Source: Sphagnum magellanicum (taxonomy: Eukaryota > Streptophyta > Sphagnopsida > Sphagnales > Sphagnaceae). Taken from it: a stretch of DNA of 64,000 nt. A program made the position numbers and the translations under genes. How positions within the stretch are numbered: the stretch's first letter is position 1; every line of letters begins with the position of its first letter. The notes beneath the pieces were generated by a model. The model was not told the origin of the DNA. It searched no databases and was given only the letters and a program-made list of their open reading frames with translations. Below, one piece after another: positions 59,998 to 63,200 of the stretch. The stretch spans positions 11,314,146 through 11,378,145 of the forward strand of contig CM038921.1 in NCBI GenBank assembly GCA_021904315.1. The letters are read 5' to 3'.

Positions 59998-61225
59998 GTG
60001 GGCCAAAGGGGAGGAGCTCTGTACTTCATAATAGAACCTTCTATTTCTGAGAGCCTCCATAGTTGCATTTAGTTTCGAGTGATGGGCCAATCAAATTGGC
60101 TCATTGCAAAAACGAAAAAAAGAAAAAAGAAAATGGAACTTTGGAGGTAACTTATCTAATTAATGTGAGGGACAATTAGGTATCCCAGCTCTGAAGAAGG
60201 GGTATTAGCCCAGGCGAAAAATGGTGAGAAACAGTTTAGGAAACAAAAGTTGCATGCAGCCAACGAAAGGCTCAGTATGCACTAATGAGGTGTCCAGTTT
60301 TTTTCTTTTTGAGAAGGAGGGGGTGGGGGGGGGGGGGAGGATTTTTCTTTTCTTCCTTGTTCCCATCTTGTTCCCTATGTGTTTCCATTAGGTTCCCAAA
60401 GGTTCTTTAAATTTTCCAGTTGTTCTCCAAAAAGTTCCCAATAGCAGCTCACTTTCATTCCATATAGTTTGCCCAAAGTTCAACTCTCATATATATATAC
60501 TGAAAAGCTGAGCCCCAGAGAGCACATTTGTTTTTCTATTTTGCAATTAGGGCTCAAAACAGATGCTTCTATTGGGGCATGCCCAATGTTCCCAAAATTT
60601 GCTGATGGGCCAATCAATATGGCTCCTTTAAAAAAAGAGAAAATGTTATCAGTGCACCTATGAACTAATTATTAATATGAATCACAATAGGTACCCCCAG
60701 TTTTTAATGGGGGTACAAAATAGGTACCCATGCTCTTAAGAAGGGGGTATTAGTTCAGGCCTAAAACTGAAATAATAAGTACCCCCAGTTTATAATGGGG
60801 GTATTAGCCCAGCCCAAAAATGGTGACGAACAGTTTTGGAACATAGAAATTTCATGCTGCCAATGGGAAGGCTCAGCATGCCCTCAAAGTGCCTTGATTT
60901 TTTTTCTTTTGAGTTTTGGGGTTGCGGGGGAGGGGGTTTTTTTTTTCATTTTTTCTTTGTTCCCTTCAAGTTCCCAATGGATTCCCCCCCCATCAAGTTC
61001 TCAATATGTTCCCTAAGTTCCCAATGTGTTCCCCAAAGTTGTTCCCAATAGAACCTCGCCTTAATCCCATATGTTTTGCCCAAAGTCCACCCCTTCTCAT
61101 CTATATAGGTGGGCGAGAGGGCAAGGCACTCCATTCCATAGAACAGTCTATTTTGGGGAGCCTATCTCGTTTCTTTTTCTTTTGCTATGGGCCAATCAAA
61201 TTGGCTCATTGCAACCCAAAAAAAA
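59998..61225 (+). repeat. Direct repeats of a 525-583 bp unit
   Basis: The block GATGGGCCAATCAAATTGGC recurs at about 60078, 60603 (diverged) and 61185. Between these, units share an AACT.AT.TAATTAAT start, GGGGTATTAGCCCAG, AAAATGGTGA, AACAGTTT, GGCTCAG.ATGC, a G-rich run, AAGTTCCCAAT subrepeats, TCCCATAT.TTTGCCCAAAGT and a TATATA core (near 60490 and 61098). The triplicated block to the left is the amplified core of the same unit. Class unknown; possibly LTR-derived or a satellite. Confidence 0.7.
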
Positions 61226-61437
61226 AAAAAAAAGTTGACCTTGTGAGGCACCCCCAATTAATTGATATGAAACAGAATATGGGGAGGACTTTGTGCAAAA
61301 CATATGGGATTACAACAAGGTGCTATTGGAAACACCCTTGGGGAACACATTGGGAACCTAGGGAGGACATTCGGAACCTGATAGGAACCAATTGGGAACT
61401 TGAAGGGAACATGTTGGGAACAAAGGAAAACTATCTC
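60950..61437. repeat. Inverted repeat arms, ~140 bp each
   Basis: The sequence at about 60950-61087 (TTGTTCCCTTCAAGTTCCC through TATGTTTTGCCCAAAGTCC) reappears inverted at about 61284-61437 (GGACTTTGTGCAAAACATATGG through GGGAACAAAGGAAAA). The loop is about 195 nt and includes a TATA-like CTATATAG. A transcript across it could fold into a long hairpin. Confidence 0.75.
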
Positions 61438-61699: not shown

Positions 61700-63200
61700 A
61701 TGTTTTCATCATCACCAGTGCAGCAAGTGCAGTTGCTGTCTGCAGCAGCAGCAACAGGACGTCACTGTTTTCTAGACCACCAAAACAGCAGCTCCACCAC
61801 CACATGGGGGAAGAGGGAGGCGACCAAGAGGAGCTTGTTGTTACGTGTCTTCTGTGTGCACCGGCAATTGCACTATACCCATCAACAACTTTTGCAGTAC
61901 ACCGCACTTCTTCTTCCCAGAGCTCACCGGATAGGAACAGAAGCGGCACTCACAGATCATGGCAGATGTAAGCTTTCTTGTGTTCTTCCTCTCTATTTCT
62001 ACTGCCTTGTTCTCACAGTACCTGTGTCTTGTTTTGCCTAAAATTCTTGACCTGATGATCATAGTGATATTTTTTTAAGCAAATCCAAAGATTGGACACA
62101 GTCTATGCAAAATGAAATACCTCACGGTGGCTTCTGTCTGATCAAAGTACATGATTTGATAGGAAGTTTTTCTGCAGTTCCTGGAGTTCAGAGAGAGAAA
62201 CTGTGGTGGGAGTTCTTTTTAGATCCTTCCCAATGGTGGGATCACAGATCGGAGAAGGTAACTGAACATCAATTCTGACGGAGTTCACATGTCATTGGAA
62301 CCATAGGTCTTTTTGGTGTCAATCTTGTTCCTCTCTCTTTGGTTTCTATCCGGCCATGGTCTTAGCTTTGGCAGAAATTGTTTTCAGATCCTTTGCTATG
62401 GTGGAATAATAGTAGTAGGCTGGAGAAGGTAAGTAAATGCAATATGCTGTGACAAAATTCTCTTGCTAATGGAGAAGGTCAGTGTGGCTTTATCTGTTGT
62501 CATGATACCATTTTTATGCCTGGGATGTGGAGAATGCATGGCTGATCAGCTTGACCTGGATTTCTAGTTGTGGACCAATGAAGGTACCAAAATTTCAAAC
62601 ATAATAAGAAAGGGGAAGATCTGTGGCTTGAGGACTGATGAAACCTGCCATGGGTGGCAGCAGAGATGGCTGCAATGGCACCAGGCACAGTGCAATTGAA
62701 CATTTTTGCATAGAATAAGAAGCTTACAAAAAATGTGAAGGATGGGCAATATGAGAAGGTGATGCAGCTTTTCCAACAAATGCAACAAGAAGGAATGAGT
62801 CCTGGCAAATTCAGGTTTGTTCAGGTGATTAATGCATGTGGTGATTTAGAAGCACTTGCAAACAGCAGGCTTGTTCATGAACAGCTCATTCAAAGTGGTT
62901 TTGAGTCTGATGTCTTTGTGGGGAATAGCTTGGTTGACATGTATGCAAAATGTGGGAGCATTGAGGCTGCTTGGCAAGTGTTGACTAAGAGGCCATCATG
63001 AAATGTGGTCACTTGGGATGCCATGATATTGGGACACATGAAATGTGGGCAAGGACAGAAGGCACTGGACCTGTTTTGAAATGTGACAGGAGGGTGTGCG
63101 CCTGACCTCTGTAACCTTTGTAGCAGTGCTGGATGCAAGTGCCGGTGTGGTTGCCCTTGAAGAGTGCAGGTGTGCTCATGAGCAGGTCAGGCTGTACCTA
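61700..63200 (+). pseudogene. PPR gene with N-terminal OSB-type PDF motifs, decayed
   Basis: The PDF part is two spliced-looking exons. Exon 62178-62257 encodes REKLWWEFFLDPSQWWDHR; exon 62366-62428 encodes LWQKLFSDPLLWWNN. Both have AG/GT borders and join in phase. At about 62590-62640 comes RYQNFKHNKKGEDLWLED, the second half of a PDF motif, then LPWVAAEMAAMAPGTVQLN. From 62735 PLS-type PPR repeats follow: VMQLFQQMQQEG, LIQSGFESDVFVGNSLVDMY, AKCGSIEAAW, WDAMILGHMKCGQGQKAL, and after a frame change SVTFVAVLDASAG. Stops occur at 62608-62640, 62721 and 62999, among others. The 5' part (an open frame from 61700) is uncertain. OSB proteins bind single-stranded organelle DNA; PPRs bind organelle RNA. 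No E/DYW tail follows. Confidence 0.7.

Follow-up and report, generated by a model that had tools for sequence, protein, structure and literature searches.

The window, that is, the whole stretch of 64,000 nt analysed here (G000:C15:11314146-11378145), belongs to a moss genome of 438,994,042 bases in 31 contigs. Gene remains on its + strand, between positions 61700 and 63189, are identified from their sequence as a truncated pseudogene of a family that carries the PDF motif of OSB proteins ahead of PPR repeats (Table 1). An open exon 1, missed in the original prediction, encodes a Ser/Arg-rich, presequence-like N-terminus (MFSSSPVQQ...HGR) and joins exon A in frame in the window DNA; as assessed by eye, its open frame and GT donor are kept in eight of nine aligned relatives, the exception being L011. 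Exon A translates into (F)PGVQREKLWWEFFLDPSQWWDHRSEK, which matches the first half of the OSB PDF. Two exons with good borders, each encoding a WWDxR motif, had been proposed at this locus; exon A proved to be one of them, but the second did not hold. In 30 copies aligned by DNA similarity, the stretch concerned (62366-62428) reads well in few, and many carry frameshifts or stops. Its variability at codon positions 1, 2, and 3 (0.25, 0.32, and 0.24, respectively, versus 0.13, 0.09, and 0.19 in exon A) lacks the third-position excess of exon A, and the stretch is absent from the joined PDF motif in five intronless copies. Two working PDF exons were thus rejected, the second looking like an intronic relic that probably arose by exon duplication and is probably not a working exon of the family.

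The PDF second half and linker that had been placed ahead of the PPR repeats were indeed found, starting at 62574 instead of around 62557, frameshifted and with the acceptor lost. By eye, AG is kept at this exon-B acceptor in 24 of 30 aligned copies. The window and its two closest copies (3/3) all carry a one-base deletion just after the acceptor. Relatives carry the intact form TNERYPDFKHKKTGEALWL..PWVAAEMAAMAPG, and the window has RYQNFKH where the intact motif reads RYPDFKH. Additional stops map to 62636-62641, 62711-62713, and 62999-63001. The linker AEMAAMAPGTVQLN precedes a PPR segment (62714-63001) that is recognized by Pfam PPR_2 (E=3.7e-9), the window copy having two PPR stretches. 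Likeness to the relatives stops near 63189 (DNA matches end at query position ~1060), and the window copy has no E/DYW region. Identity to the window locus is 96% and 93% in the two closest copies, which reside on the - strand of C15 (11451655-11452690 and 11471506-11472561, respectively), ~75 and ~95 kb from it, and make up a small pseudogene cluster with it. Since all three share the lost acceptor and the frameshift, both lesions probably predate the duplications behind these chromosome-15 copies. Just 5' of the pseudogene, positions 60950-61430 hold a large imperfect inverted repeat, foldback/MITE-like, with 105-nt arms (83% complementary) and outer arms of 26-28 nt. A tRNA scan returned no tRNA genes.

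Table 1. Parts of the PDF-PPR pseudogene in the window (positions of the 64,000-nt stretch)
Feature	Position	Strand	Remarks
Exon 1	61700..61967	+	89 codons plus 1 base, open frame; phase-1 donor GTAAGC
Exon A, first half of the PDF motif (REKLWWEFFLDPSQWWDHRSEK)	62178..62257	+	acceptor CTGCAG; phase-0 donor GTAACT
Probable decayed exon-A duplicate within the intron	62366..62428	+	reads LWQKLFSDPLLWWNNSSRLEK, then GTAAGT
Lost splice acceptor of exon B	62568..62573	+	TTGTGG; common to the two closest copies
Exon B start: second half of the PDF motif (RYQNFKHNKKGEDLWLED..NLPWV) and linker AEMAAMAPGTVQLNIFA	62574..62713	+	frameshifted, with stops
PLS-type PPR repeats	62714..63189	+	stop at 62999-63001, and frameshifts

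Searches of the same 439-Mb genome revealed at least 178 loci in which an OSB-type PDF motif runs into PPR repeats. This number is the union of two peptide searches, one with the PDF second half plus the first repeat and the other with a diverged version of it, each returning at least 150 matches; 3 of the 300 rows, which start late in the query, were left out. Stop-free frames reach at least 450 aa in 82 of these loci and at least 600 aa in 66, both figures being lower bounds, and a stop interrupts the match in 50 of the 178 listed. A query of 1.1 kb from the window recovered 128 matching stretches in the genome, derived from 40 scored candidates, and the 26-residue exon-A peptide yielded at least 150 matches, the weakest among those listed at E 1.4e-4. 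Among the 150 listed loci with the PDF second half and first repeat, 85 have an exon-A match upstream, at a spacing of 3-6 bp (9 loci, intronless), 86-208 bp (36), or 237-351 bp (40), and 65 of the 150 listed exon-A matches are without a partner among the listed second-half loci. A query with the 61-residue OSB PDF (148 rows in this genome) ranked the two OSB genes at the top, ahead of PPR-linked frames; in 45 of these rows, the match is stop-free over 49 or more residues, and 26 of the 45 belong to open frames of at least 400 aa.

All seven single-exon loci examined (L076-L082) combine an unbroken N-terminal stretch, the full PDF motif, the linker, and PPR repeats. Four of them also encode a DYW-type C-terminus in the same ORF (DYW in L078, L079, and L081; DCW in L082), and the frames of L076, L077, and L080 end before it, with a DYW match just downstream in another frame. 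In L078 (1023 aa) and L082 (715 aa), the DYW model PF14432 was matched over 93/93 positions (E=4.6e-42 for L082) and the E motif over 63/63. PLS-class PPR proteins are built of tandem P-L-S repeats of ~35, 35, and 31 residues. Assignment to this class follows from P and S repeats collected from 20 copies, from the P-L-S order readable in intact ORFs, and from the Pfam PPR families matched. The complete DYW deaminase is thus present in intact relatives, not in the window copy. As judged from these open frames, the PDF-PPR fusion is real. The anticipated module order, with an OSB-type PDF ahead of a PLS-type PPR array, was confirmed within single uninterrupted ORFs, and copies with introns split the PDF at the OSB intron position; also confirmed was the proposal that the decayed window copy has intact relatives elsewhere in the genome, namely, single open ORFs with both parts. 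The converse, that no intact protein carries both domains, is contradicted at the open-reading-frame level in the genome searched. Likewise, the idea of an organelle factor combining PDF and PPR stands, with one PDF motif instead of two and with a DYW domain that had been overlooked; given the E and DYW domains of the intact genes, the family belongs to the RNA-editing type, with predicted editing activity.

We then asked how the PDF of these genes relates to that of true OSB genes. An OSB gene on C19, which encodes an SSB domain, splits its PDF between WWDNRGKK and QNPRYPDFKHK by an intron gtcagt...cag. Eighteen PPR-linked PDF copies with an open frame of at least 300 aa were extracted by motif patterns. 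In all 13 intron-bearing copies of this set, a phase-0 GT..AG intron directly follows the EK after WWD, and all 5 intronless copies are joined exactly at the OSB splice point. Within this small set, the OSB PDF is 52-62% identical to each PPR-linked PDF over 49-56 aa (E 3e-28 to 7e-24), and it scores 86 bits against the profile of the 18, the best of 1000 shuffles reaching 14.9. OSB agrees with the PPR copies at 24 of the 27 PDF columns that are at least 94% conserved among the latter, versus 8 of 27 other columns. Since the split falls at the residue and in the phase found in the true OSB gene, the motif, together with its intron, was probably captured from an OSB gene. Excerpts of a review (PMC4166229) place OSB proteins with a PDF in Physcomitrium and in the alga Klebsormidium, which makes the direction from OSB to PPR the likelier one, and the AMAPGTVQL-like linker common to the 18 copies points to one capture. 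The family shares the PDF motif with OSB proteins, and the SSB-like OB fold (PF00436), which is matched by the true OSB gene L072, was not found in L076, L016, L078, or L082; in the absence of this fold, we file the proteins as a domain variant of PPR-DYW proteins and not as OSB proteins.

The PDF proved frequent among open DYW frames. From 150 DYW-domain matches listed, we picked by eye at least 54 frames that are stop-free over at least 450 aa. A PDF-half match lies up to 4.5 kb upstream on the same strand in 42 of these 54; 39 are clean (37 with an identical open-frame length) and 3 are weak, that is, L083 and C6:19333293, which lack the YPDFK part, and C4:3079859, which has a stop. The other 12 have no PDF in the main overlay, but two of them (C15:13677918 and C2:27297015) have, by eye, a PDF match nearby in the OSB-query search, so that the combined PDF peptide searches detected none for 10 of the 54 listed frames. 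PDF-less DYW genes were rejected as a clear separate class, since the supposed controls, L083 and L084, both carry a PDF half, degenerate in the former and intact in the latter. L083 (G000 C10:13150700-13153760), an 865-aa DYW frame in which the PDF half reads TTQEFLWLNSKLNTPWV, exemplifies natural PDF decay on an otherwise open gene. Among the PPR matches listed, 68 lie in open frames of 400 aa or longer; a PDF or WWD match was located upstream in 39 of these frames and no PDF match in the other 29, as counted before a wider PDF search added matches. Among the matches listed, most examined open DYW frames of one moss carry a motif of organelle DNA maintenance that was probably captured with its intron and is kept under constraint.

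As a whole, we consider reasonably likely an explanation in which a large nuclear family encodes organelle-type proteins with a presequence, one OSB-captured PDF, a PLS-type PPR array, and, in many of them, E and DYW domains, an architecture seen in intact open frames, and in which these proteins edit RNA with help from the PDF. Weighing against it are the listed DYW and PPR frames without a PDF match, the three weak PDF matches, the three single-exon frames that end ahead of the DYW domain, and the loci with a stop within the match. A role in RNA editing is the firmer part of this proposal and quite probable. PLS-DYW proteins choose their RNA by residue 5 and the last residue of each repeat and deaminate C. 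The PPR array would pick sites in organelle RNA, and the DYW domain would deaminate cytidine at these sites. Among 64 P repeats taken from 20 copies, 63 have T, N, or S at position 5 and 59 have D or N at position 35, each position showing two common states; a point against the proposal is that these code positions rank only 7th and 8th of the 35 in variability. These two common states suggest that paralogues should read different RNAs. In known PPR proteins, the side of the first repeat faces the RNA 5' end. Placed before this repeat, the PDF could hold single-stranded nucleic acid irrespective of its sequence and so strengthen or position binding, a role that we propose tentatively, as somewhat short of an even chance, and narrowly prefer to docking at nucleoids. 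The family offers a direct test of how an extra single-strand-binding module alters the target affinity and specificity of a programmable RNA editor.

Alternatively, the PDF could serve as an address or docking tag through which the editing factors reach nucleoids or a partner protein, with editing taking place beside transcription. Most aromatic and basic residues common with OSB are retained, which would fit kept ssDNA binding, and the PDF of Arabidopsis OSB1 alone suffices to bind ssDNA according to the available part of a review (PMC6963530). On the other hand, the short conserved linker sets the PDF directly against the first repeat, so that it looks built into the array, and we regard a docking tag as rather unlikely. 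The term DNA-binding module, as applied to the fused PDF, is carried over from the OSB literature. OSB1 and OSB2 prefer ssDNA over dsDNA or RNA, as stated in the portion of PMC4166229 at hand, and this preference argues against a simple transfer of the motif to RNA. If the fused PDF retained OSB-like ssDNA binding, the proteins might link organelle DNA to nascent RNA at nucleoids, R-loops being one example, and edit while transcription proceeds, which we deem improbable; in the extreme form of this scenario, cytidines of single-stranded organelle DNA might come within reach of the PPR-guided deaminase as well.

Pooled over the 18 copies, pN/pS is 0.225 in the PDF versus 0.45-0.50 in the PPR region, and pS is 0.555 versus 0.43-0.49; as these copies were chosen by motif patterns, the PDF value is biased low. 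The contrast in codon-position variability between exon A and its intronic duplicate, drawn from the 30 DNA-similar copies, provides a test of constraint free of such patterns. From these substitution patterns, we conclude that the PDF module is under constraint. A PDF that is a neutral passenger, kept only through the copying of genes, would be in line with the broken copies (a stop inside the match in 50 of the 178 listed loci) and with the degenerate PDF on the otherwise open DYW frame of L083. However, in the motif-picked set the PPR part has roughly twice the pN/pS of the PDF, the pS of the PDF being somewhat higher, and exon A keeps a codon-position bias that the intronic duplicate does not, in copies that were not motif-picked, rendering this explanation very improbable. 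The window copy alone, in which the frame is broken between the parts, could be taken for an OSB-like gene fragment that lies next to a separate PPR gene and is fused to it in appearance only. But single uninterrupted ORFs cover PDF and PPR at many loci, the halves are paired at 3-351 bp in 85 loci among the matches listed, and in 5 intronless copies the junction falls exactly on the splice site, so that we reject this two-gene reading as of negligible probability. As for age, excerpts of PMC9946827 report two genome-duplication dS peaks for S. divinum, the higher at 0.643. This value is exceeded in 110 of the 153 pairs of the 18 copies, in a dS distribution near saturation (at least one pair is infinite), from which no more can be concluded than a great age of much of the family.

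The usual picture of a plant DYW editing factor consists of a presequence, a PPR array, and a deaminase. The proteins described here resemble PPR-DYW editing factors of the PLS class, e.g., PpPPR_56 of Physcomitrium, in their PLS array, E motif, complete DYW domain, and presequence-like N-terminus, and differ from them in the PDF motif ahead of the first PPR. With OSB proteins they share a PDF that is 52-62% identical and split at the same intron position and phase, but they have no OB fold, the PDF is near the N-terminus instead of C-terminal as in OSB, and PPR/E/DYW follow it. Maize PPR4 likewise has an additional nucleic-acid-binding domain, an N-terminal RRM, ahead of its repeats (PMC9459714, in the text available); however, PPR4 combines its RRM with a P-type array, whereas the moss family combines a PDF with PLS-DYW. 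A table footnote of the same review, which covers 107 Physcomitrium PPR proteins, names RRM, LAGLIDADG, SMR, NYN, CBS, and SAP as extra domains, the PDF not being among those in the available part. The motif has no Pfam model, and searches of Pfam and NCBIfam left the PDF stretch unmatched, a possible reason why it could escape notice, for instance in that Physcomitrium survey. Excerpts of the survey also count 10 DYW proteins in Physcomitrium (PMC9459714), far below the at least 54 open DYW frames found here, raising the question of why one moss has dozens of DYW genes and another ten.

In the literature searched, no title or abstract start names a PDF-PPR fusion; subscription literature lay largely outside this search, and an earlier description is possible. 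The terms "PDF motif", "pentatricopeptide", and "organellar single-stranded DNA" all occur in PMC6963530, the available part of which draws no link between them. Literature hits to "WWD motif" were discarded, as they refer to an unrelated haem motif, and the literature searched gave no count of editing sites in Sphagnum, as far as the texts were accessible. A sequence search of the PDB gave no convincing relative of the PDF among solved structures. Pattern searches for the PDF returned 78 stretches in prokaryote genomes and 21 in IMG/VR, none of which was confirmed. Separately, the N-terminus of L082 produced weak matches in IMG/VR (37-39% identity) on two ~44 kb contigs, L085 and L086, which cover query residues 75-114, outside the PDF core.
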